Shown piece after piece: positions 7,528-19,980 of a stretch of DNA of 20,182 nt (its first letter is position 1; every line of letters starts with the position of its first letter). Below the pieces are notes generated by a model. The model searched no databases, was not told the DNA's origin, and saw only the letters and a program-made list of their open reading frames with translations. The DNA is from a virus, in IMG/VR virus record IMGVR_UViG_3300037502_004194, positions 1 to 20,182 of that record; one strand, given 5' to 3'. A program made the translations under genes and the position numbers.

Positions 7528-9219
7528 ATGATTTTATTTTATGACGTAGAAGTCTTTCCCCACGATTGGCTTCTCGTCATAATTGACCCCACAAATCATC
7601 AAAAACATGTAATCATAAATGATGCTAAGAAATTAGCATCATTTTGTGAAAAACATAAAGAACATATCTGGATAGGCTATAACAGCCGTCACTATGACCA
7701 ATATATTCTAAAAGGTATCCTTTTAGGTTTTGATCCCCATAGTATCTCCAAGTACATTATAACAGATAAAAAGCAGGGATGGCAGTATAGCTCCCTATTT
7801 AAAAAAATAAAACTCTATCAATATGATGTAATGACTACCCATAATAGCCTAAAGGAACTAGAAGGATTCATGGGAAATGATATTAGGGAAACTACTGTAA
7901 GTTTTAATATAGATAGAAAACTAACTGAAAATGAATTACAGGAAGTAGCTAGTTACTGCACATATGACGTAGAGCAGACTATGGAGATTTTTCTTCATAG
8001 AAAAGAAGAATTTGACTCCCATGTGGCTCTGCTAAAGGCCTTTAATCTACCACTAAAATATATAAGTAAAACAAAGGCGCAACTTGCAGCGGTAATTTTA
8101 AAGGCTAATAAGGTAAATCGCTCTGATGAATTTGATTTAATCCTGCCAGACACTTTAAAAATTGAAAAATATAAACAAGTAGTAGAGTGGTACAAGAACC
8201 CAAACAATCATAGTTATGAAAAATCCCTAGAAACAACTATGAGTGGAGTGCCCCATGTATTTGCATGGGGAGGGCTTCACGGAGCAAGGGACAAGTATCA
8301 GGATGAAGGAATTTTAGTCAATGTTGATGTATCTTCCTTTTATCCATCTCTTATGCTTGAGTATAACTTTTTATCTAGAAATGTAGAAGACCCAAGTTTA
8401 TATAAAAAAATATATGAACAGCGTCTTAGACTTAAAGCAGAAAAAAGCCCTATGCAGCTTCCTTATAAAATCGTCCTTAACAGTACTTATGGGGCCATGA
8501 AATATAAATATAATAACCTCTATGACCCAAGACAGGCCAATAATGTGTGCGTAGGTGGACAGCTACTTCTTCTAGATTTAATAGAGAAACTAGAGCCCTA
8601 CTGGACATTAATTCAATCTAATACCGATGGATTAATAGGAAAAATCAAAAGGAAAAGGGACCTTAACAAAATAAAATCCATCTGCAAAGAGTGGGAAGAT
8701 AGAACCCGTATGAAATTGGATTTTGAACTCTTTCATAAAATCTATCAAAAGGATGTAAACAACTATATCATCATTAAAGAAGATGGTAGCTATAAGTCTA
8801 AAGGAGCCTATGTCAAGAAATTAAGCAATATTGATAATGATTTACCTATTGTAAATATGGCATTAAAAGAATTTTTTATTAATGGAGTACCAGTAGAAGA
8901 AACCATAAATAACTGTAGGGACCTTTTAATGTTTCAAAAGGTAGTAAAAATAAGCTATAAATATTCCCATGCTCTTTATGGCAATAAAAAATTATCAGAA
9001 AGGTGCCTTAGGGTATTTGCTTCAAAGAAAGAAGATGACAAAGGAGTTTATAAACTAAAGGAAAATGGCAGAGTAGAAAAAATAGCTGGTACACCAGAGA
9101 AGTGTTTTATAAAAAATGAAAATGTTATAGGTAAAAGAATTCCTAGAAGACTTGATAAAGATTGGTATATTCATGTAGCTAAAAAAAGACTTAGTGATTT
9201 TTTAGAAAAAGCAAAGTGA
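7528..9219 (+). CDS. compact family-B DNA polymerase with 3'-5' exonuclease
   Basis: Replicative phage DNA polymerase. Proofreading motifs: Asp6 and Glu8 in FYDVEVF (ExoI), NSRHYD at 51-56 (ExoII), Y143CTYD147 (ExoIII). Polymerase motifs: motif A DVSSFYPS at 267-274 with catalytic Asp267, motif B KIVLNSTYG at 314-322, motif C NTDG at 365-368 with catalytic Asp367. Motif C departs from the usual DTDS: the first aspartate is Asn and the serine is Gly. At 563 aa it is short for family B, and I see no obvious terminal-protein region. It has no strong ribosome site of its own (AGGTTG), which suggests translational coupling to the preceding gene two bases away. The gap after it ends the first replication block. 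Confidence 0.92.
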   Translation: MILFYDVEVFPHDWLLVIIDPTNHQKHVIINDAKKLASFCEKHKEHIWIGYNSRHYDQYILKGILLGFDPHSISKYIITDKKQGWQYSSLFKKIKLYQYDVMTTHNSLKELEGFMGNDIRETTVSFNIDRKLTENELQEVASYCTYDVEQTMEIFLHRKEEFDSHVALLKAFNLPLKYISKTKAQLAAVILKANKVNRSDEFDLILPDTLKIEKYKQVVEWYKNPNNHSYEKSLETTMSGVPHVFAWGGLHGARDKYQDEGILVNVDVSSFYPSLMLEYNFLSRNVEDPSLYKKIYEQRLRLKAEKSPMQLPYKIVLNSTYGAMKYKYNNLYDPRQANNVCVGGQLLLLDLIEKLEPYWTLIQSNTDGLIGKIKRKRDLNKIKSICKEWEDRTRMKLDFELFHKIYQKDVNNYIIIKEDGSYKSKGAYVKKLSNIDNDLPIVNMALKEFFINGVPVEETINNCRDLLMFQKVVKISYKYSHALYGNKKLSERCLRVFASKKEDDKGVYKLKENGRVEKIAGTPEKCFIKNENVIGKRIPRRLDKDWYIHVAKKRLSDFLEKAK

Positions 9220-9267
9220 TACATCCCAAATAACTAACATCTAATCATTTTACAATCATTAAAAATC

Positions 9268-9302
9268 GGCTCTTTTCTGGGAGGCAAGTTCCCAAAAGAG
9301 CC
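9268..9302 (+). terminator. strong hairpin after the polymerase gene
   Basis: GGCTCTTTT pairs perfectly with AAAAGAGCC (9 bp), extended by GGGA / TCCC across a two-base bulge. No T-run follows, so it is not a standard Rho-independent terminator; it could be an mRNA-stabilising or processing hairpin. Confidence 0.5.
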
Positions 9303-9342
9303 CTAAAAACAGCATACAAGAGAGAAAAAATCTGATTCATGA

Positions 9343-9454
9343 GGGGTTAGTTGGTAGGAAAGGCAGGTTTTTAATAAAAATCTGGTAGAAAAACCTTATA
9401 AAAAGGTAGCGAATTCTTACCAACTACCCTATGAATTGGTATAAAAAACTACCA
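9343..9454. repeat. nested inverted repeats with GGTAG elements before the primase gene
   Basis: An outer dyad pairs TAGTTGGTAGGAA (9348-9360) with TTCTTACCAACTA (9414-9426), 13 bp with one G-T, extended by GGG / CCC across a bulge. Inside it AGGTTTTT (9365-9372) pairs with AAAAACCT (9389-9396). A further TGGTA / TACCA hairpin lies at 9437-9454. GGTAG or its complement occurs five times. The 272-base gap holds no credible gene. It lies between polymerase and primase-helicase, so it may be an origin or a structured leader. Confidence 0.45.
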
Positions 9455-9491
9455 GTTAATTAGCAATTTTAATCAATAAGGCGGTGAAAAA

Positions 9492-11381
9492 GTGGACATT
9501 TTAAAAGGTTACATTAAAACTAGAGGTAAAAAACCCATAGAAACATATAGAAAGAAAAAGAAATTCTATACCTACGACTACATCCGTAAAACCGGTGGTG
9601 ACTTTGCTGGAATTTTAGCAGATGGGATGGTGCAGATTGATGTAGATGATGAAGAAGAAGCGGACCTTGTAAAAAATATAGTTACTGACCAGAAAATATC
9701 TTGTGCTATTTTAAAGACTACTAGAGGACTACACTTTTACTTTAGAAATAAGGATTTAAATAAAAGACAGACAAAAAAGAAAACACCAATAGGTGTATCT
9801 GTTGACATAGGTATTGGTGAGCAGAATGCTCTTGTACCAATAAAAGTAGAAGGTAAAACGAGAAGATGGCTAAACCGCATTGAAAATATTGAGGATATTG
9901 ATTTTTTACCAGATTGGTTAAGACCTATTAAAAATGCCCCGGATTTTAGTGCTCTAGGAGAAGGTGATGGCCGCAATCAAACTCTTTTTAATTATATACT
10001 TACCTTACAGTCAGAAGGTTTTAGTAAAGAAAGTATAAAAAACACTATTGCTATCATCAATCAATACATTTTAAAGGTACCACTGGAAAAAAGAGAACTA
10101 GATAAAATTTTAAGAGATGAAGCATTTTTAAAAGAGTCCTTTTATATTAAATCCAAGTTCCTACACGATAAATTTGCTAAATTTCTAAAAGCAGAGGAGC
10201 ACATTATAAAGATTAATAGCCAGCTTCATATCTACAGAGATGGTATATATAAAAGCGACCCACTAGAAATTGAATCATCTATGATTAAACATCTGCCGGA
10301 GCTTACAAAGTCCAAACGAAATGAGATATATAGCTATTTACAGCTTATAGCAGAAGATGTAGAGCCATCAGATGCAAAATATATAGCCCTTGCAAGTGGA
10401 GTACTAGATATAAATACTATGACAATTACTGACTTTTCACCGGATTTAATATTACAAAATAAAATTAAATATAATTATCTTCCAAGTGCCTATGACTCAG
10501 TAGTAGATAGAACCCTTGATAAAATATGCTGTAATGATAAGGATTTACGAAAGCTCCTAGAAGAGTTAGTAGGATACTTACTCTTTAGAAGAAATGAAAT
10601 GGGTAAGTGTTTTATCCTCACTGGAAGTGGGAGTAATGGGAAGTCCACATTCCTTGATATGACTAAAAATCTATTGGGTAGTGATAATTATTCATCCCTT
10701 GGAATAGATGAACTTGGTGAGAGATTTAAAACAGCAGAGCTTTTTCACAAATTAGCTAACATTGGAGATGACATTAGTAAAAAGTATATTGACGATAATG
10801 CCATTTTTAAAAAATTAGTTACAGGAGAAACGGTAAATGTAGAGAGAAAAGGAAAGGATCCCTTTGAATTTAATAACTATGCAAAGCTTCTTTTTAGTGC
10901 AAATAAACTACCAAGAATAAATGACACTTCAGATGGTTTAATGAGAAGACTTGTAATTATTCCCTTTAATGCAGTTTTTAGTGAAAAGGATGCAGATTTT
11001 GATGCCTTTATAAAAGACAAGCTTTTAACTAAGTCGGCTATGGAATATTTATTAAAACTTGGAATAGAAGGATTAAAAAGAGTACTAACCACAGGATTTA
11101 CAGAACCTTCAGTAGTAACAAAAGAGAAGAAGGAATATGAAATGATTAATAATCCAGTTTTAACTTTCATAAATGAAGGAATAAAAATAGAAAATGAACC
11201 ATCTAAAGATGTATACAGAAAATATAGTACTTGGTGTTATGAGAATGGGTTAAAGCCCCTTAGTCATGTGGAGTTTGGACGAGAAATTAATAAGCATGGT
11301 TTTGAATCAAAGGTAAAGAGAGTTAATGGGAAAACTATAAGGATTTATATAAAGGATATTACAGAAGTTACAGATAAGTGA
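9492..11381 (+). CDS. primase-polymerase / SF3 (D5-like) helicase
   Basis: A two-part replication protein that primes and unwinds phage DNA. The N-terminal 150 residues form an archaeo-eukaryotic-type prim-pol: IDVDDEE with Asp50/Asp52, GLHFYF with His81, VSVDIG with Asp105. The C-terminal half is a superfamily-3 helicase: D5_N-like region (about 230-350), Walker A GSGSNGKST at 378-386, Walker B NIGDD at 423-427, and the motif-C segment LLFSANKLPRIND. A pox-D5-like C-terminal winged region follows (RKYSTWCYENGLKPLS). At 629 aa it is of ordinary size. It starts at GTG after GGCGGTG. Its last codons lie in the left arm of a 13-bp inverted repeat. Confidence 0.93.
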   Translation: MDILKGYIKTRGKKPIETYRKKKKFYTYDYIRKTGGDFAGILADGMVQIDVDDEEEADLVKNIVTDQKISCAILKTTRGLHFYFRNKDLNKRQTKKKTPIGVSVDIGIGEQNALVPIKVEGKTRRWLNRIENIEDIDFLPDWLRPIKNAPDFSALGEGDGRNQTLFNYILTLQSEGFSKESIKNTIAIINQYILKVPLEKRELDKILRDEAFLKESFYIKSKFLHDKFAKFLKAEEHIIKINSQLHIYRDGIYKSDPLEIESSMIKHLPELTKSKRNEIYSYLQLIAEDVEPSDAKYIALASGVLDINTMTITDFSPDLILQNKIKYNYLPSAYDSVVDRTLDKICCNDKDLRKLLEELVGYLLFRRNEMGKCFILTGSGSNGKSTFLDMTKNLLGSDNYSSLGIDELGERFKTAELFHKLANIGDDISKKYIDDNAIFKKLVTGETVNVERKGKDPFEFNNYAKLLFSANKLPRINDTSDGLMRRLVIIPFNAVFSEKDADFDAFIKDKLLTKSAMEYLLKLGIEGLKRVLTTGFTEPSVVTKEKKEYEMINNPVLTFINEGIKIENEPSKDVYRKYSTWCYENGLKPLSHVEFGREINKHGFESKVKRVNGKTIRIYIKDITEVTDK

Positions 11382-11398
11382 AAACATCTGTAACTTCT
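11363..11398. repeat. perfect 13-bp inverted repeat over the primase stop codon
   Basis: AGAAGTTACAGAT and ATCTGTAACTTCT are exact complements separated by 10 bases, and the stop codon lies in the loop. No T-run follows. The GTTACAGAT core recurs three more times just downstream, so this is best read as the first pair of an iteron set rather than a terminator. Confidence 0.8.
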
Positions 11399-11423
11399 AA
11401 AGACTAGAAAAATGAATGAATAA

Positions 11424-11567
11424 GGCAGGTGTTACAGATGTTACAGATATTTGTTTATTCCTTTATATAAAGAGAAAAAGAGAGTAGATAAAAAATTATT
11501 ATATATAAAATAAATATATATATATTATATATAATCTGTAACAATGTTAAAAAATTATCAACCTGCC
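11424..11567. other. candidate replication origin: iterons flanking an AT-rich tract
   Basis: GGCAGGT and two tandem GTTACAGAT copies (11431-11448) stand on the left. ATCTGTAAC (11534-11542) and ACCTGCC (11561-11567) stand inverted on the right. Between them is a run of about 40 bases that is almost only A and T (about 11497-11535). Iterons beside an easily melted tract, next to the primase-helicase gene, is an origin-like layout. The same DNA is the leader of the next gene, so it could instead be an operator. Confidence 0.5.
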
Positions 11568-11590
11568 GTGAAAATCGGAGGTGTAAGATT

Positions 11591-11977
11591 ATGAATATAA
11601 CAAAAACAAATGAAACTAATATAGAGCAAAAGAAATCTGAGGAGAAAAAAATCGTATTTATATGCAGTCCCTTTGCAGGGGATATTGAGGGAAACACAGA
11701 GAGAGCTAGAAGATATGGAAGATTTGCTGTAACTAAAAATGCTATACCAATAATACCTCATCTCATGTACCCACAGTTTTTATGTGAGGATGATCCTGAA
11801 GAAAGAAAGCTAGGACTAGCTATGGGATTAGTACTTTTATCAAAATGTCACGAACTGTGGGTGTTTGGTGGTAAAGTTACATCAGGAATGGCTGTGGAGA
11901 TAGAAAAAGCAAAAAGTGTTAATATGCCTATTAGATATTTTGATACTCATTGTAAACCTGTGGGAGGGATGAGATGA
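11591..11977 (+). CDS. DUF4406-family nucleoside deoxyribosyltransferase-like protein
   Basis: A 128-aa protein of the nucleoside 2-deoxyribosyltransferase-like fold (DUF4406): KIVFICSPFAGDIEGNTERARRY at the front, then IPIIPHLMYPQFL, and LLSKCHELWVFGGKVTSGMAVEIEKAKSVNMPIRYF. The SPFAGD loop, the E in ERAR and the SGMAVEI segment are the usual ligand-binding positions. Phage copies may handle modified nucleotides, or bind nucleotides without catalysis; the substrate is not known. The first 18 residues are polar and look like an unstructured extension. GGAGGTG precedes the ATG, and the gene ends in a four-base overlap with the next one. Confidence 0.85.
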   Translation: MNITKTNETNIEQKKSEEKKIVFICSPFAGDIEGNTERARRYGRFAVTKNAIPIIPHLMYPQFLCEDDPEERKLGLAMGLVLLSKCHELWVFGGKVTSGMAVEIEKAKSVNMPIRYFDTHCKPVGGMR

Positions 11978-12216
11978 TGAATGATATGAATGTTAAAGAT
12001 ATTAAAGACGAGAGAGATTGCTTCGCTTATAAAAATAAAAGATGTACTATTTTAAAATCAAATAAATGTGAAGGAACTGAGTGTGGATTTTATAAAACTA
12101 AAGAAGAATTTAAGCTAGGACAAAAGAAGGCACTTGAGAGAATACTTTCTTTAGATAAAGATAAAAGGGATTATATAAGTGAAACCTACTATGGTGGGAA
12201 AATAGAGGTGATATAG
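11974..12216 (+). CDS. small four-Cys phage protein
   Basis: An 80-aa protein not assigned to a named family. Cysteines at 16, 24, 32 and 37 (DCFAYKNKRCTIL, NKCEGTECGFY) suggest a small metal-binding knuckle, followed by a helical KTKEEF...QKKALERILSL segment. Similar short 'CFAYxxxxCxIL...CxFYKT' proteins are common next to DUF4406 genes in Clostridial phages. It overlaps the previous stop (ATGATGA), and GGGAGGG lies 5-8 bases before two adjacent ATG codons, so the start could also be 11977. Function unknown. Confidence 0.75.
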   Translation: MMNDMNVKDIKDERDCFAYKNKRCTILKSNKCEGTECGFYKTKEEFKLGQKKALERILSLDKDKRDYISETYYGGKIEVI

Positions 12217-12218
12217 CA

Positions 12219-12635
12219 ATGAAAGCTAAGGAATATTTATCGCAGGCTATTTGGCTTGATAAAAAGATTAATAATAAGCTTGAAGAGAAACAAAGGCTAG
12301 AAAGTTTGGCCCAAAAAGTCACAGTGGATATTACACAAGAAAAAGTATGTGGCGGAAAAATAACAAGTCCTATGGAAAATGCTATTGTTAAGCTTATAGA
12401 TTTAAGTCATGAAATAAATGATGATATTGATAAGTTAGTTGATTTAAAAAGAGAAATACTAGAAACTATTAACAAGGTAAATGATATTACTTGCCAAGTT
12501 CTTTTAGAAATGAGATATATATGCGGTAAAAGCTGGGAAGATGTAGCAAGTGCTATGGGTTATGACAGGAGTACAATATTTAGAATTCATGGAAAAGCAT
12601 TAAAAGAAATTCAAAAAATAAAAAGTTGCGACTAA
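12219..12635 (+). CDS. DUF1492 / ArpU-like sigma-70 region 4 regulator
   Basis: A 138-aa protein resembling the phage late-gene activators of the DUF1492/ArpU/RinA type. The N-terminal part is a long helix pair (LDKKINNKLEEKQRLESL, and LIDLSHEINDDIDKLVDLKREI). The C-terminal 40 residues form a sigma-70 region 4-like helix-turn-helix: LEMRYICGKSWEDVASAMGY, then DRSTIFRIHGKALKEI. Proteins at this place usually switch on packaging and structural genes. The promoter at 12642-12671 begins at its own stop codon and is overlapped by three phased 10-bp repeats, an obvious candidate target. The gene starts two bases after the previous one and ends the middle operon. Confidence 0.85.
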   Translation: MKAKEYLSQAIWLDKKINNKLEEKQRLESLAQKVTVDITQEKVCGGKITSPMENAIVKLIDLSHEINDDIDKLVDLKREILETINKVNDITCQVLLEMRYICGKSWEDVASAMGYDRSTIFRIHGKALKEIQKIKSCD

Positions 12636-12671
12636 ATGCGATTGAATGCGACTATTAAAATGTAGTACAAT
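12627..12671 (+). promoter_or_regulatory. sigma-A-like promoter overlapped by three 10-bp repeats
   Basis: TGCGA occurs at 12627, 12637 and 12647, exactly one helical turn apart, each starting a TGCGAYTRAA-like decamer (the last ends in ATT). The promoter TTGAAT (12642-12647), 18-bp spacer, TACAAT (12666-12671) is overlaid by the last two repeats. This suggests direct control, probably by the sigma-like protein encoded immediately upstream. Transcription would start near 12678. Confidence 0.7.
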
Positions 12672-12677
12672 ATAAAG

Positions 12678-12814
12678 TGTAAAGGTATAGAAAAATCAAG
12701 AGTACCATATGCTGTTTGAATAGGCCGAGGTTATATCGATTCGATTCCAAGGAAACGCAGCATTCTTGATAAAAGGGCCCTAGGAGATAAACTCTAAAGG
12801 GCTTTTTCTATACC
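12678..12814 (+). ncRNA. candidate structured RNA 1
   Basis: No reading frame worth reporting lies here, but the segment starts at a good promoter and folds extensively. A 12-bp closing stem pairs GGTATAGAAAAA (12684-12695) with TTTTTCTATACC (12803-12814). Inside, ATCAAGA (12695-12701) pairs with TCTTGAT (12764-12770) and ATGCTG (12709-12714) with CAGCAT (12758-12763), stacked on the right strand. The apical part contains a tRNA T-arm-like TTCGATTCC. A terminator hairpin (GCCCT / AGGGC) with five T closes the 3' end. The closing stem uses the terminator's own T-run, so the two structures compete. I do not recognise a named RNA family. Confidence 0.55.
12777..12807 (+). terminator. terminator of candidate RNA 1
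   Basis: Stem GCCCT / AGGGC with a further GAG / CTC pairing inside, followed by TTTTT. The 19 bases starting at 12798 recur exactly at 13862-13880. Confidence 0.6.
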
Positions 12815-12836
12815 CTGAATAGATGAAAAAATCACC

Positions 12837-12865
12837 TTTACAACGAACTTGTGTTCGTATAAAAT
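12837..12865 (+). promoter_or_regulatory. LexA-box promoter
   Basis: TTTACA (12837-12842), a 17-bp spacer and TAAAAT (12860-12865) make a good sigma-A promoter. The spacer holds CGAACTTGTGTTCG (12844-12857), which agrees with the Gram-positive LexA/DinR consensus CGAACRNRYGTTCG at every position but one. A repressor bound there would block RNA polymerase, so the two small genes downstream should be DNA-damage inducible. Confidence 0.8.
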
Positions 12866-12895
12866 ATTATTATATAAATTTATGGGGTGATGAAT

Positions 12896-13159
12896 ATGAT
12901 GGTAATAGGAAAAGAAATTAAAATGATTGACAGTATAAACTTGAAAGGAATATCCTATCCTGTTAAATTTGGATTTGAAGTAAACGATGAGTTAAAGGCA
13001 ATAAAGGTTAAAAAAATAAATAAAGTAAACAAAGAAGAATTAGAAGGAAAAGAAGTTTATAAATTTTCTTGTGAAAGCGAGATTGAAGATGAAATTTTAA
13101 AATTTGATATAACCTTTGATACAGATACATATAAGTGGGTATTAACTGACATACAATAA
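12896..13159 (+). CDS. small uncharacterised protein under LexA-type control
   Basis: An 87-aa lysine- and glutamate-rich protein with alternating hydrophobic stretches (SYPVKFGFEVNDELKAIKV, EVYKFSCESEIEDEILKFDI, TFDTDTYKWVLTDIQ) that look like a small beta-rich fold. I recognise no family, signal peptide or membrane segment. GGGGTGA lies upstream of ATG 12896, with another ATG directly after it; GTG 12887 is part of the ribosome site. Its promoter carries a near-perfect LexA box, so it should be induced together with the prophage. It could be a cell-takeover, anti-host or damage-response factor; this is inference from regulation only. Confidence 0.65.
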   Translation: MMVIGKEIKMIDSINLKGISYPVKFGFEVNDELKAIKVKKINKVNKEELEGKEVYKFSCESEIEDEILKFDITFDTDTYKWVLTDIQ

Positions 13160-13180
13160 AAATTTAAAGGGGAGTTTCGG

Positions 13181-13348
13181 TTGGATAAAGGAGAATTTAT
13201 TCTTGTCTGCAGTAATTGTGGACAAAGATTAATTTTAGAAAATGGCATAGAATATGATAAGATAACAGAGAAATTTAACATAGTTATTAGCGACACAAAG
13301 GAGATTTTAATTATATGTAATGAATGTGGTAATAGAGTTAGATTTTAA
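13181..13348 (+). CDS. 55-aa zinc-ribbon-like mini-protein
   Basis: A short frame starting at TTG with AAGGGGAG six bases upstream: it begins MDKGEFILVCSNCGQRLIL and ends ILIICNECGNRVRF. Two Cys-x2-Cys-Gly knuckles about 36 residues apart, each followed by a basic residue (CGQR, CGNR), give a convincing rubredoxin/zinc-ribbon pattern. It lies 21 bases after the previous gene with no terminator between, so it shares the LexA-box promoter. Small stand-alone zinc ribbons can bind nucleic acid or a partner protein; the function is unknown. Confidence 0.65.
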   Translation: MDKGEFILVCSNCGQRLILENGIEYDKITEKFNIVISDTKEILIICNECGNRVRF

Positions 13349-13560
13349 ACATTAAATATATTTATTATTGATAGAAAACTAATAAAAAATAGATAAGATA
13401 AATAAATGTCACTATTATAATTTTGAATTATAAAAAATATAATAAAGATAAGAGAACCAGATGCTTCAGAATAGACTTAATATATATTGAGTTGGTTTCT
13501 AGAAAAAGATATAAATTTGTGGAAATAATGAATTGCTGTTAAAGGCTATTTTAAGAATAA

Positions 13561-13589
13561 TTGACAAAAGAGTTAATTTGGTATACTAT
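13561..13589 (+). promoter_or_regulatory. strong sigma-A promoter in a gene-free gap
   Basis: A perfect TTGACA, a 17-bp spacer and TACTAT (an overlapping TATACT is two bases earlier). The next credible coding start is more than 440 bases downstream, beyond a terminator. The transcript therefore seems to be non-coding. The 213 bases before it (13349-13560) are AT-rich with small dyads only. Confidence 0.75.
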
Positions 13590-13595
13590 CAGTAG

Positions 13596-13725
13596 TAATA
13601 GAGCTCACCACGCCTATTAACAATGCGGACCAGGGTGAGACTTTTAAATAACTTGAGATGAATGCTTAAAGTGGTATTAAAGGCAAAGATGGGGAGTCAC
13701 GAGTGGGCTCCCTGGTATTATTTTA
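13596..13725 (+). ncRNA. candidate structured RNA 2
   Basis: Three successive hairpins follow the promoter. CTCACC (13604-13609) pairs with GGTGAG (13634-13639), with an inner CGC / GCG. ACTTTTAA (13640-13647) pairs with TTAAAGT (13666-13672) with one bulge. GGGAG (13692-13696) pairs with CTCCC (13708-13712) and runs into a TATTATTTT tail, a weak terminator. GC content rises clearly above the surroundings, as often seen for functional RNAs in AT-rich genomes. There is no open frame of note. If the weak terminator is read through, the RNA would end at 13871. I do not recognise a named family. Confidence 0.5.
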
Positions 13726-13839
13726 AATATAAAAATTTACTTTAGCTAAACACTTGGCTGGATGCTATGTATTTTTTAGTGTGGATTTGTACAACTATTT
13801 TATATGATCAACATATTTTCATTATTTGATAAAAGACTT

Positions 13840-13871
13840 AAGCTCTGAAACATTTGTTTTCAGGGCTTTTT
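13840..13871 (+). terminator. strong Rho-independent terminator
   Basis: AAGCTCTGAAA pairs with TTTTCAGGGCTT (11 bp with one G-U) around a 6-base loop, followed by five T. A near-copy lies at 15545-15578. Confidence 0.9.
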
Positions 13872-13924
13872 CTATACCCTAAAAATCAAATTTATATTAT
13901 TTAATTTGAATTATCGGAGATTCA

Positions 13925-13997
13925 TGATACATATTATAATAAAAATGTATCAATTAATACATAACTTGTTGTAATTTTAGTATATTTAGTATATAAT
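13925..13997 (+). promoter_or_regulatory. toxin-antitoxin promoter with operator dyads
   Basis: TTGTAA (13969-13974), 17 bp, TATAAT (13992-13997) is a good promoter 34 bases before the toxin start. Upstream, TGATACAT (13925-13932) and ATGTATCA (13945-13952) are exact inverted repeats, and a further ATACAT half-site lies at 13957-13962. The half-sites end just before the -35 box, as expected for an autoregulated toxin-antitoxin operon bound by the antitoxin's HTH. Confidence 0.7.
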
Positions 13998-14031
13998 TTG
14001 ATTATAATATAAGAATAGGAGTGACTAAAGT

Positions 14032-14457
14032 TTGAAGCATTTCAAAAGAAAAATTAATAAGTATACAGATTTTACTCCTGAAGATATAAAAAAGTACCTT
14101 GATAAGTTTAGAAAAGCTGTATTAGAGGGAAAGTATATTATTTCTAAAAATCAGAATAGACAAGAAAATATAGAGTTTATTGAGGATTATAAAATTAATA
14201 CAAAAAAGGAAAAAGAAATACTATTAGGGATTCAATATGATGATTTTTGTTATGCTGTAGATAACGAGAAAGAAGAATTTGCCCATGAGAAATTGTACAT
14301 ATTCTGTAAGTGTCAAGAGTTAGATTATTGGGGCACTTTAGAATCTGTTGACATATATATTAAAATAAACATGACTCAGACAAAAAGAGGAGATGATTTT
14401 ACTATAGTGGTTTCTTTTCATAAAAGAAATAAACCAATAAAATATCTTTTTAAATAA
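14032..14457 (+). CDS. putative MqsR-like toxin
   Basis: A 141-aa basic protein at the first position of a two-gene operon. The C-terminal half follows the order of elements in MqsR toxins (RelE-superfamily RNases): EILLGIQYDDFCYAV resembles MqsR's IGLSESDFYKS region, and SVDIYIKINM...FTIVVSFHKRN resembles its VYLKI...IVSFKEK strand pair. The N-terminal 60 residues are an extra helical, lysine-rich part (TPEDIKKYLDKFRKAVLEGKY). The start is TTG with AGGAGTGA seven bases upstream; a poor start codon is common for toxins. Its neighbour carries an MqsA-like zinc ribbon and a Panacea region, which supports a toxin role. The family match is from memory of motifs, so I hold it as probable, not sure. 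Confidence 0.6.
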   Translation: MKHFKRKINKYTDFTPEDIKKYLDKFRKAVLEGKYIISKNQNRQENIEFIEDYKINTKKEKEILLGIQYDDFCYAVDNEKEEFAHEKLYIFCKCQELDYWGTLESVDIYIKINMTQTKRGDDFTIVVSFHKRNKPIKYLFK

Positions 14458-14513
14458 ATTACTTGATTACACTAAATTAAAAGTTGATAATAAATAAAAA
14501 GGAGGCGCCCTAA

Positions 14514-15512
14514 ATGAAAGGGTTTTGTGAAAAATGTCATGAAATGACAGAATACTCTATTAAAGAAGTAAAAAAGGAAAAAAATATTAAAGGTAAGAAT
14601 ATTAAATATATAGGGAAAGAAGCTTATTGTAATGAATGTGGAAGTGAAATATTTGTGCCTGAGATTCGTGATCATAATTTGGCTATGTTAGATAAGGCGT
14701 ATAGAGAAAAAGAAGGATTAATTTCAGTACCAGAAATTGAATTAATACTTGAGAAATATGATGTAGGAAAAAGACCTTTATCTCTATTATTAGGTTGGGG
14801 AGAAGGCACTTTAACTAGATATTTAGATGGAGATATTCCTTCAAAACAATATTCTGATATATTAAAAAGACTACTTAGTGATTCTAATTACATGAAAGAA
14901 ATATTAGAACAAAATAAAGATAAAATTACAGATTTAGCATATAGACGTATAATCAATGCTTTAGAAAAAAATGAAATTGCAGTAGAAGCTATAGAACCAG
15001 AAGATAAAATAGATTATGTTGTTAAGTATTTGTTAGCAAATTCTTTAGATATAACACCACTTGCTTTACAAAAACTATTATATTATGCTCAGGGATTTTA
15101 TAAAGCATTTACAGGTGAGTATTTGTTCCATAATAATTGTGAAGCTTGGGTACATGGGCCTGTATATAGGAGCATATATTATAAATATAAAGGTTACGGT
15201 TATAATCCAATTGACGATCCAGATTTTAAATATGAAGAAATTAAATTAACAACAGCAGAAAAAGAGATACTAGATAGTGTTATTGCAAATTTCGGTTGTT
15301 ATAGTGGTAAGGTTTTAGAAAAAATGACTCATATCGAGGAACCTTGGAGAATTACTAGAAAAGGTTTGAGTGACAATGAAAGCTCAGATAGAATTATAAA
15401 TAAAGAATTAATAGCTAAATACTTTGGAGAGATTAAATCTAAATATGGTATGCTTAATATCTCTGATATTAAGGATTACAGTAGGGATCTTTTTAGCAAA
15501 TTATATAATTAG
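14514..15512 (+). CDS. Panacea (SocA/DUF4065) antitoxin with MqsA-like zinc ribbon and HTH
   Basis: Probable antitoxin that neutralises the upstream protein and represses the operon. Three parts are visible. A zinc ribbon has Cys5, Cys8, Cys39 and Cys42 (FCEKCHE, YCNECGSE), like the MqsA N-terminus. An HTH at about 72-107 reads LILEKYDVGKRPLSLLLGWG then EGTLTRYLDGDIPS. A Panacea/SocA domain at about 163-300 includes DYVVKYLLANSLDITPLALQKLLYYAQGFYKAF and AWVHGPVYRSIYYKYKGYG. Panacea domains are known to serve as antitoxin modules against many toxin types. The length of 332 aa is normal for this arrangement. A GGAGG lies before ATG 14514, a stronger site than the toxin's, which favours antitoxin excess. 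Confidence 0.85.
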   Translation: MKGFCEKCHEMTEYSIKEVKKEKNIKGKNIKYIGKEAYCNECGSEIFVPEIRDHNLAMLDKAYREKEGLISVPEIELILEKYDVGKRPLSLLLGWGEGTLTRYLDGDIPSKQYSDILKRLLSDSNYMKEILEQNKDKITDLAYRRIINALEKNEIAVEAIEPEDKIDYVVKYLLANSLDITPLALQKLLYYAQGFYKAFTGEYLFHNNCEAWVHGPVYRSIYYKYKGYGYNPIDDPDFKYEEIKLTTAEKEILDSVIANFGCYSGKVLEKMTHIEEPWRITRKGLSDNESSDRIINKELIAKYFGEIKSKYGMLNISDIKDYSRDLFSKLYN

Positions 15513-15544
15513 AAATATAAAATATATAAATTAATATTTAATCT

Positions 15545-15578
15545 AAGCTCTGAAACCTTTACTTTTCAGGGCTTTTTT
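15545..15578 (+). terminator. Rho-independent terminator after the antitoxin
   Basis: AAGCTCTGAAA / TTTTCAGGGCTT with a 7-base loop and six T. Both stem arms are identical to those of the terminator at 13840, so the toxin-antitoxin operon is bracketed by the same terminator. Confidence 0.9.
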
Positions 15579-15604
15579 AATACTTAAAATTTGGAGATGG
15601 CAAA

Positions 15605-15781
15605 ATGAATAAATGTAAAAAATGTCTATGGGGAACATGGCTTACACCAAAGAAGATGTACTGCATGTTCCCTGTTTGTTTTAAAGCAAAAATAGATAAG
15701 GAGAATAGTTATGCCAAGAAAACCAAAGCGTATGTGCAGCTTCCCAGGCTGCCCAGAACTGACGGAAGGAAGGTATTGTGA
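15605..15781 (+). CDS. small four-Cys protein overlapping the HNH gene
   Basis: A 58-aa frame beginning MNKCKKCLWGTWLTPKKMYC and continuing MFPVCFKAKIDKENSY. The Cys pattern (two as CxxC, then C and C five apart) and the WGT / FPxC context resemble short proteins often found just before phage HNH genes. GGAGATGG lies about 6 bases upstream of the ATG. The last 23 residues overlap the HNH gene in another frame, so the C-terminus may be incidental, but the Cys cluster lies wholly outside the overlap. Function unknown, possibly metal binding. Confidence 0.55.
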   Translation: MNKCKKCLWGTWLTPKKMYCMFPVCFKAKIDKENSYAKKTKAYVQLPRLPRTDGRKVL

Positions 15782-16088
15782 GAAACATCAGAAGGAAGAG
15801 ACGAAGAAATATAACAGAAATAGAAAATACAAAAAGCTTTATAACAGCAATAGATGGCAAAGGTTAAGGAAAAAGGTATTAATAAAGCATCCTCTTTGTG
15901 TAGAGTGTGAAAAGAAAGGAAGACTTACTCCAGCAACTGTAGTGGACCATATTGTATCCCATCATGGTGATGAAGCTTTGTTTTGGGATGAAGATAACCT
16001 TCAGGCCTTGTGTAAGTCTTGTCATGATAAAAAGACAGCTAGAGAAGATGGAAGATGGGGAAGGAAAAATAAAGTGTACACCTATTAA
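15711..16088 (+). CDS. phage HNH endonuclease
   Basis: A 125-aa HNH nuclease of the kind that sits beside terminase genes and assists DNA packaging by nicking or cleaving at cos. Zinc-binding cysteines C63 and C66 (LCVEC) and C101/C104 (LCKSCH) frame the HNH core: VVDHIVSHHGD with Asp79-His80, FWDEDNLQAL with Asn96, and CHDKKT with His105. An extra N-terminal Cys/His cluster (C9, C14, C23, H26) looks like a second zinc site. GGAGAATAG precedes the ATG. It lies directly before the GC-rich cos/pac candidate, the usual arrangement in HNH-dependent cos phages. Confidence 0.92.
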   Translation: MPRKPKRMCSFPGCPELTEGRYCEKHQKEETKKYNRNRKYKKLYNSNRWQRLRKKVLIKHPLCVECEKKGRLTPATVVDHIVSHHGDEALFWDEDNLQALCKSCHDKKTAREDGRWGRKNKVYTY

Positions 16089-16866: not shown

Positions 16867-18108
16867 GTGAAAAGAACAGAAGAATTAAAAGTGTTACCCA
16901 TAGATGAACTTATCCCTTATGCTAATAATGCCAGAACTCATAGCAAAGAGCAGATAAAAAAGCTTAGAAGCAGTCTTAGAGAATTTGGGTTTGTAAATCC
17001 AATACTAATAGATAAAGAAAAAAATATAATTGCAGGACATGGAAGAGTAGAAGCTGCAAAAGAAGAAGGAATCAAATCTGTACCATGTGTTTTGGTAGAG
17101 CATTTAACAGAAGCCCAGAAGAAAGCATATATTTTAGCTGATAATAGACTAGCATTAGATGCAGGATGGGATAAAGAGCTATTGGCCCTAGAACTAGAGA
17201 ATTTAAAAGAACTGGATTTTGATATAAACCTTACTGGATTTGATGCTGCAGAGATAGAAGATTTGTTCTCTAATATTCATGATAAAGAAGTAAAAGACGA
17301 TGATTTTGATGTAGATGCAGCCCTTGAAGAAGAGCCAATATCAAAACAAGGAGATATATGGATACTTGGAAAGCATAGGCTTATCTGTGGAGATAGTACA
17401 AAAGCAGAAACCTATGAGAAGCTTATGGAAGGTAAGAAAGCAAACTTAGTGGTTACCGACCCACCATATGGTGTATCATATGAAGGAGCTGCAGGGACCA
17501 TACAAAATGATAACCTTGATAATGATGCTTTTTACAAATTTTTATATGATGCTTTTAAAAACATGGAAAGTGTAATGGCAGATGATGCATCAATATATGT
17601 TTTTCATGCAGATACCAAAGGACTAATATTTAGAAAGGCCTTCGAAGATGCAGGATTCTATTTATCAGGGGTTTGTCAATGGGTTAAAAATTCATTAGTT
17701 TTAGGAAGAAGTCCTTATCAATGGAAACACGAACCCTGCCTTTTTGGTTGGAAAAAGAAAGGAAAACACAAATGGTATGCAGGAAGACAAGAAACTACAG
17801 TTTGGAATTTCGATAGACCTACAAAATCAAAATTACATCCAACTACAAAACCAATACCTTTAATTGCTTATCCAATAAAAAATAGTTCAGTTAGTAACTG
17901 CATAGTTCTAGAACCTTTTGCAGGAAGCGGATCAACAATTATCGCCTGTGAACAACTCGATAGAATATGTTACGGTGTAGAGTTAGATGAAAAATACTGT
18001 GATGTAATTGTTAAAAGGTATATAGAGTATGTTGGCACTGATGAAAAAGTTTTTTTAATAAGGGATGGAGAAAAAATAGCTTATAGAGATATTGATATAA
18101 CAAAATAA
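16867..18108 (+). CDS. ParB-like nuclease domain fused to beta-class DNA methyltransferase
   Basis: Residues 1-110 are a ParB/Srx-like N-terminal domain: IDELIPYANNARTHSKEQI, FGFVNPILIDK and the IIAGHGR motif at 54-60. Residues 165-413 are an amino-methyltransferase (N6-adenine or N4-cytosine): catalytic DPPY at 198-201, and the AdoMet-binding FAGSGST at 351-357. DPPY precedes FAGSG, which marks the beta class. Such fusions are common near phage terminase genes and modify phage DNA, protecting it from host restriction or marking pac/cos. No partner restriction enzyme is seen. GTG 16867 has GAGGTGG six bases upstream; in-frame starts at 16831 and 16846 lack a ribosome site. The target sequence cannot be predicted. 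Confidence 0.92.
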   Translation: MKRTEELKVLPIDELIPYANNARTHSKEQIKKLRSSLREFGFVNPILIDKEKNIIAGHGRVEAAKEEGIKSVPCVLVEHLTEAQKKAYILADNRLALDAGWDKELLALELENLKELDFDINLTGFDAAEIEDLFSNIHDKEVKDDDFDVDAALEEEPISKQGDIWILGKHRLICGDSTKAETYEKLMEGKKANLVVTDPPYGVSYEGAAGTIQNDNLDNDAFYKFLYDAFKNMESVMADDASIYVFHADTKGLIFRKAFEDAGFYLSGVCQWVKNSLVLGRSPYQWKHEPCLFGWKKKGKHKWYAGRQETTVWNFDRPTKSKLHPTTKPIPLIAYPIKNSSVSNCIVLEPFAGSGSTIIACEQLDRICYGVELDEKYCDVIVKRYIEYVGTDEKVFLIRDGEKIAYRDIDITK

Positions 18109-18111
18109 AGG

Positions 18112-18165
18112 CTTGACTTTACCTGTGTTTAGAGTGATGTATAGACTACACTAAAACGCAGGAGG
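18112..18165 (+). promoter_or_regulatory. hairpin-promoter element, copy 1
   Basis: TTGACT box at 18113, left arm CCTGTGTTT (18122-18130), conserved centre AGAGTGATGTATA, TATAGA at 18140, right arm AAACGCAGG (18154-18162) running into the ribosome site GGAGG (18161-18165). The arms pair along their length with one G-U, extended by AG / CT across a bulged A. Confidence 0.8.
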
Positions 18166-18641: not shown

Positions 18642-18698
18642 CTTGACTTATCTGTGTTTTAGAGTGATATATAGTAGTAACAAAAACACAGAAAGGGG
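18642..18698 (+). promoter_or_regulatory. hairpin-promoter element, copy 2
   Basis: TTGACT at 18643, left arm TCTGTGTTTT (18651-18660), centre AGAGTGATATATA, TATAGT at 18670, right arm AAAACACAGA (18683-18692) next to the ribosome site AAAGGGG. The outer C-G pair of the other copies is T-A here, changed on both arms. Confidence 0.8.
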
Positions 18699-18706
18699 AT
18701 TTGAAA

Positions 18707-19042: not shown

Positions 19043-19060
19043 AGTTATGTAAATAAATCC

Positions 19061-19114
19061 CTTGACTTACCTGTGTTTTAGAGTGATGTATATAGTAACA
19101 AAAACACAGGAGGG
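19061..19114 (+). promoter_or_regulatory. hairpin-promoter element, copy 3
   Basis: TTGACT at 19062, left arm CCTGTGTTTT (19070-19079), centre AGAGTGATGTATA, TATAGT at 19091, right arm AAAACACAGG (19101-19110) continuous with the ribosome site AGGAGGG. Perfect 10-bp arms. It follows a terminator directly. Confidence 0.85.
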
Positions 19115-19901: not shown

Positions 19902-19925
19902 AAACTACAAAAGGGCAATAAAAGT

Positions 19926-19980
19926 CTTGCAATTACCTATGTATAGAGTGATGTATATAATAACAAAAACATAGGGAGGT
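19926..19980 (+). promoter_or_regulatory. hairpin-promoter element, copy 4
   Basis: TTGCAA at 19927, left arm CCTATGT (19936-19942), centre AGAGTGATGTATA, a perfect TATAAT at 19956, right arm ACATAGG (19969-19975) running into GGGAGGT. The central G-C pair of the other copies is A-T here, changed on both arms. The stem is shortest, about 7 bp. Confidence 0.8.

Follow-up and report, generated by a model that had tools for sequence, protein, structure and literature searches.

A predicted type II MqsR:PanA toxin–antitoxin operon with a divergent toxin, carried as an optional phage cassette

Results

The two-gene operon between a late-type transcription regulator gene (12219-12635) and an HNH endonuclease gene (15711-16088) is very probably a toxin–antitoxin operon of type II and of the MqsR:PanA kind that forms an optional phage cassette and encodes a putative MqsR-fold RNase together with an antitoxin that would both neutralize the toxin and repress its own operon. 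It lies in a 20.2 kb window of phage DNA from a virus record, the window being the whole stretch analyzed here, and further genes of the window encode a primase/helicase and a ParB-methyltransferase. The toxin gene (14032-14457, plus strand) has a TTG start, encodes 141 amino acids and is preceded by the ribosome-binding site AGGAGTG (14017-14023, plus strand), and the antitoxin gene (14514-15512, plus strand) has an ATG start, encodes 332 amino acids and is preceded by AGGAGG (14500-14505, plus strand), both reading frames being where the initial annotation had placed them and each having a good ribosome-binding site. The nearest genome copies of the pair are from Firmicutes, several of them Clostridium, and the phage host is probably Clostridium-like.

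Several other features were observed in the window, within which no Rfam family or tRNA was found. An open reading frame of 636 amino acids with an IrrE/ImmA-type peptidase domain (Peptidase_M78) occupies 1-1911 at the window edge, and a repeat of about 60 nt is found between successive genes (18103-18165, 18642-18706, 19051-19113, and 19917-19975), as well as in related phages. The region 3' of the late-regulator gene (12636-12818) is noncoding, is retained in the near-identical phage L113, and contains a possible ATGCTG...CAGCAT stem before a terminator. A possible small RNA gene is located at 13561-13722, where a strong terminator (13690-13714) lies downstream of a promoter-like TTGACA-17-TACTAT and a long open reading frame is absent; an exact 22-nt probe for this candidate matched only the L003 contig, there was no Rfam match, and its folding was no better than that of most shuffles (z = -1.1).

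Searched by itself, the window toxin matched neither PF15723 nor any other MqsR model and gave no convincing Pfam match, its sole match being to a PHROG of unknown function. Searches of the PDB with the single toxin sequence and with early profiles found no MqsR, no relative of the toxin was found in an annotated phage collection, and a repeat viral scan for relatives added nothing further. Two of ten toxin relatives matched PF15723 (best E = 3e-4, this one below the cut-off), and a relative from Bacteroidota, obtained with tblastn and carrying the annotation MqsR, matches PF15723 at 3e-4. When a profile of the toxin family (30 sequences) was aligned with a PF15723 MqsR profile, built from a set gathered independently, hhalign returned 98.1% with a score of 80.8, compared with a best score of 22.7 in 200 column shuffles and with values below 1% for reversed and unrelated profiles. 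Searched against the PDB, this PF15723 set recovers E. coli MqsR (3hi2) with E = 2.6e-5.

The structural model of the toxin (pLDDT 88) consists of a short strand, a helix at residues 16-31, a strand at 35-37, helices at 44-52 and 57-65, and four further strands, in the order beta1-alpha1-beta2-alpha2-alpha3-beta3 to beta6. MqsR has been reported to be made up of three helices and six strands (PMC2791442), and the model contains these six strands and three helices in the MqsR order. A Foldseek search with the model against the PDB and viral models returned nothing significant, with no MqsR or RelE among the best 50 matches, a result that, given the strong profile alignment, is not taken to refute the MqsR assignment. 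The initial annotation's reading of an MqsR order of elements in the 141-residue protein is borne out by the model, and profile and model together identify the toxin as a diverged relative of MqsR. In the case of the extra, basic N-terminal 60 residues that the annotation had described, an added domain is ruled out by the alignment of the MqsR profile from residue 8 onward and by the model, which places beta1-alpha1-beta2-alpha2 in this region; the MqsR order of elements in the model therefore indicates that these residues represent the N-terminal half of MqsR itself, somewhat lengthened.

Within the 87 intact toxins, Tyr109, Lys111, Ser128, and His130 are invariant, and Glu86 is present in most. 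The residues required for toxicity of E. coli MqsR are K56, Q68, Y81, and K96, and only Y81 is clearly kept in the alignment, where it corresponds to Tyr109 (87/87); the position of K96 is taken by His130 in all 87 toxins, most have His or Tyr at that of K56, and no counterpart of Q68 could be assigned by alignment. Most PF15723 members whose partner is a Panacea antitoxin likewise have His at the K96 position. The replacement of Lys96 by His130, the change of K56, the unplaced Q68, and the presence of His in the Panacea-paired MqsR proteins together leave the chemistry of the toxin uncertain. A rival explanation, prompted by His130 and the loss of K56 and Q68, is that the small gene encodes a protein with the MqsR fold but with a chemistry or target other than that of an MqsR-type RNase. 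That His130 and the loss of K56 and Q68 are fixed across 87 sequences would fit such a protein, as would the varied activities of RelE-fold toxins (noted in PMC10440598), but the shared His of the other Panacea-paired PF15723 members and the invariance of the Tyr, Lys111, and Ser128 positions speak against it, and we consider it quite improbable. The preferred reading is of a diverged RNase toxin with the MqsR fold, which is predicted to block translation.

The initial annotation described the antitoxin as an MqsA-type ribbon, an HTH, and a Panacea region in one chain, and family models place the first two and the third above their respective cut-offs. The MqsA-like portion, comprising the zinc ribbon and the HTH (residues 5-130; 14526-14903, plus strand), matches the MqsA family model TIGR03830 with E = 1.4e-19 and 70.2 bits (cut-off 61.8), and the Panacea domain (residues 185-278; 15066-15347, plus strand) matches SocA_Panacea PF13274 with E = 1.1e-22 and 81.5 bits (cut-off 25.7), whereas the protein is below the cut-off of the stricter Pfam MqsA model (15.5 versus 30). 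The ribbon residues Cys5, Cys8, Cys39, and Cys42 are invariant in 23 antitoxin homologues, and the antitoxin model (pLDDT 89) matches the E. coli MqsA structure 3gn5 with E = 6e-4.

The antitoxin gene is directly downstream of the toxin gene in 96/96 homologous loci from viruses, plasmids, and genomes, a figure that is conditional on a recognizable toxin because the loci were retrieved by toxin patterns. Ten loci (L036, L037, L039, L046, L050, L061, L076, L081, L091, and L094) have a toxin broken by a frameshift, truncation, or stop next to an intact antitoxin. Damaged antitoxins are found in three loci, with all of the lesions after residue 117, sparing the ribbon and HTH: a frameshift after approximately residue 118 in L018, a frameshift near 145-155 in L088, and an in-frame loss of approximately 213-240 in L084. 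The probability of at least 10 of 13 lesions falling in the toxin is P = 6e-4, with about 4 of 13 expected by length, under a length-based null that treats lesions as independent and leaves out assembly errors; many of the loci are draft metagenome assemblies, and such errors would hit both genes equally. In the B. fungorum MqsR(D2):PanA system the ribbon alone neutralizes the toxin and the HTH-Panacea portion does not (PMC10440598), and the lesion pattern, read from sequence, agrees with this finding. The N-terminal zinc ribbon of the window antitoxin would likewise bind the toxin, with the Panacea domain not being needed for neutralization and probably acting as a sensor or stability switch.

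It might be argued from the antitoxin HTH and a conserved operator-like palindrome that this is no toxin–antitoxin pair but a transcription regulator next to a small gene unrelated to it. However, the pairing is complete, the toxin decays first while the antitoxin is retained, and there is homology to a validated pair, making this explanation most improbable and upholding the annotation as a toxin–antitoxin operon.

The palindrome in question is ATGTATCAATTAATACAT (13945-13962), an 18-bp imperfect palindrome upstream of the toxin start that is the predicted operator. It occurs once in the window and is conserved across divergent relatives, among which its consensus is ATGYAYYAATTRRTRCAT. Allowing three or fewer mismatches, it is found in 30 of 91 upstream regions, with about 0.2 expected from mononucleotide shuffles, and allowing five or fewer it is found in 77 of the 91, mostly 63-94 nt before the toxin start. 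The operator palindrome of E. coli MqsR/MqsA differs from it. Just downstream is a predicted sigma-70 promoter, TTGTAA-17-TATAAT (13969-13997, plus strand), the -35 box of which is just 3' of the palindrome, and we infer that the antitoxin HTH would autorepress the operon at 13945-13962. An operator-like half-site, TGATACAT, is present at 13925-13932 (plus strand) and again at 13945 on the minus strand, and comparable second sites are found upstream in a number of the closer relatives, among them L019, L022, L023, L036, and L038; as an isolated 8-mer it is not significant, with 30 sites at one or fewer mismatches against 26 expected. The inverted operators and separate promoter that had been annotated can be retained insofar as there is a promoter-like site and an inverted pair of TGATACAT, but the conserved element is the overlapping but distinct 18-bp palindrome.

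An intrinsic terminator 5' of the operon (13840-13868, plus strand) has an 11-pair stem and a T run, and its stem is common to the intrinsic terminator 3' of the operon (15545-15574, plus strand), which is identical, including the loop, in phage L113 that lacks the operon. Both terminators are real, with five terminator-like sites found in the scan compared with 0.9 expected, although the identical bracketing terminators of the initial annotation are only near-identical, as their loops differ. Three related terminator 3' halves are found in the window (12798-12819, 13862-13883, and 15568-15589).

The cassette has approximate limits of 13348-15544 and is absent from the near-identical phages L113 and L114. 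The L113 sequence is 99.8% identical over 8243-13347 and joins window position 13347 to approximately 15531-15545 with a few bases between, and the arrangement in L114 is the same, with both phages lacking the cassette and keeping the downstream terminator. In L002 the segment 12820-13861 is missing, the junction being within 22 nt (3831-3852 in L002) that two terminators have in common (12798-12819 and 13862-13883). The empty site of L113 and L114 and the deletion in L002 make the operon an optional cassette, and these sequences suggest terminators as the places of recombination at which cassettes are exchanged. The empty site is clean in L113 (6130-6135), and phages without the cassette are 98-99.8% identical on the left flank. 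Short CxxC reading frames, possibly for small zinc-ribbon proteins, flank the cassette (approximately 13182-13348 and 15606-15711), the first running up to the boundary of the insertion. The pair is also directly upstream of an HNH gene in relatives from virus records (L004-L008, L014, and L121); in Clostridioides, and in most of the copies from genomes, no HNH gene adjoins the pair downstream.

Discussion

The initial annotation regarded the combination of these proteins as an unusual hybrid, but the architecture has already been published and experimentally dissected. The pairing of an MqsR toxin with an antitoxin of ZBD-HTH-Panacea layout is known and validated from Bacillus fungorum (NetFlax, PMC10440598): the B. 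fungorum MqsR(D2):PanA was dissected by truncation, the Lactobacillus rossiae MqsR(D2):PanA was validated, and neutralization of the toxin by the antitoxin was shown for these related pairs (PMC10440598). The MqsR-like domain is the commonest recognized partner of Panacea, with 90 sequences (PMC8832971), and MqsR:Panacea pairs are also present in L101, L102, L104, and L105. Like the B. fungorum and L. rossiae systems, the window pair combines an MqsR-type toxin with a Panacea antitoxin, and like B. fungorum PanA its antitoxin is a single chain of zinc-binding domain, HTH, and Panacea. It differs in that the toxin belongs to a divergent subfamily (141 or approximately 136 amino acids) missed by the Pfam MqsR model, and in being phage-carried, its activity being predicted from sequence and models. 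The window pair is a divergent, phage-carried subfamily of the published MqsR:PanA architecture, and that architecture is itself not new.

E. coli MqsR/MqsA (PMC2791442) shares with the window pair the order of secondary structure elements, the Tyr81 position, the four-Cys ribbon and HTH, and a toxin gene that comes first, but the K96 of its toxin is His130 in the window toxin, its K56 is changed and its Q68 has no assignable counterpart, and MqsA is without the Panacea domain found in the window antitoxin. The MqsRAC system likewise has an MqsR-family toxin and an MqsA-family antitoxin, though it uses a SecB-like chaperone gene (PMC9519451), whereas in the window operon a fused Panacea domain takes its place and a chaperone gene is absent. 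In L103 and L110 the MqsR-like gene is paired with an MqsA-type antitoxin that has no Panacea, and the gene that follows in L110 carries a SecB annotation, of the MqsRAC type, and therefore Panacea and the chaperone look like alternatives. The antitoxin SocA of the type VI SocA/SocB system has the Panacea domain in common with the window antitoxin, but the latter is below the NCBIfam SocA cut-off (62.5 versus 190 bits) and its partner is in the MqsR group.

The benefit of the operon to the phage would most likely be in keeping the element or in stopping competing phages. In the latter case, a cue from an incoming phage would act on Panacea, the toxin would be freed, and infection would be stopped. 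The operon is a presence/absence cassette in phages, placed directly 5' of an HNH endonuclease gene, MqsRAC blocks phage T2 in E. coli (PMC9519451), Panacea has been proposed to be a sensor (PMC10440598), and a related MqsR:PanA pair adjoins CBASS genes on a Fibrella plasmid (L109, 1-2852). Against this, neither protein of the pair matched a PADLOC defense model, most genome copies are outside the phage slot 5' of the HNH gene, and plain maintenance accounts for the same pattern, such that we put forward phage exclusion tentatively, as a real possibility; the defense or superinfection-exclusion role that the initial annotation had called likely is, by analogy, plausible. The operon may be a maintenance (addiction) module only, stabilizing a prophage or plasmid with no reaction to other phages, and its occurrence on plasmids, phages, and chromosomes and its operator, which is like those of classical autoregulated type II operons, are consistent with this; near-identical phages, however, manage without it, and this reading too is held with reserve. 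A more elaborate proposal is that the re-built active site (invariant His130, Tyr109, and Lys111, and mostly Glu86) gives a cleavage chemistry or target unlike that of E. coli MqsR, in a cassette for phage exclusion that recombination at common terminators would exchange, Panacea being the sensor in place of the SecB-like chaperone found in MqsRAC; this combination we regard as unlikely.

The preferred interpretation as a type II MqsR:PanA operon extends these systems by a large divergent subfamily, mostly from Firmicutes, whose toxin is unrecognized by Pfam, NCBIfam, and PADLOC models. The MqsR:PanA subfamily now has a conserved operator and natural lesions that agree with neutralization by the ribbon and not by Panacea. 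If the operon blocks other phages, the phage carrying the cassette and its near-identical counterpart lacking it would allow a clean, naturally occurring comparison.
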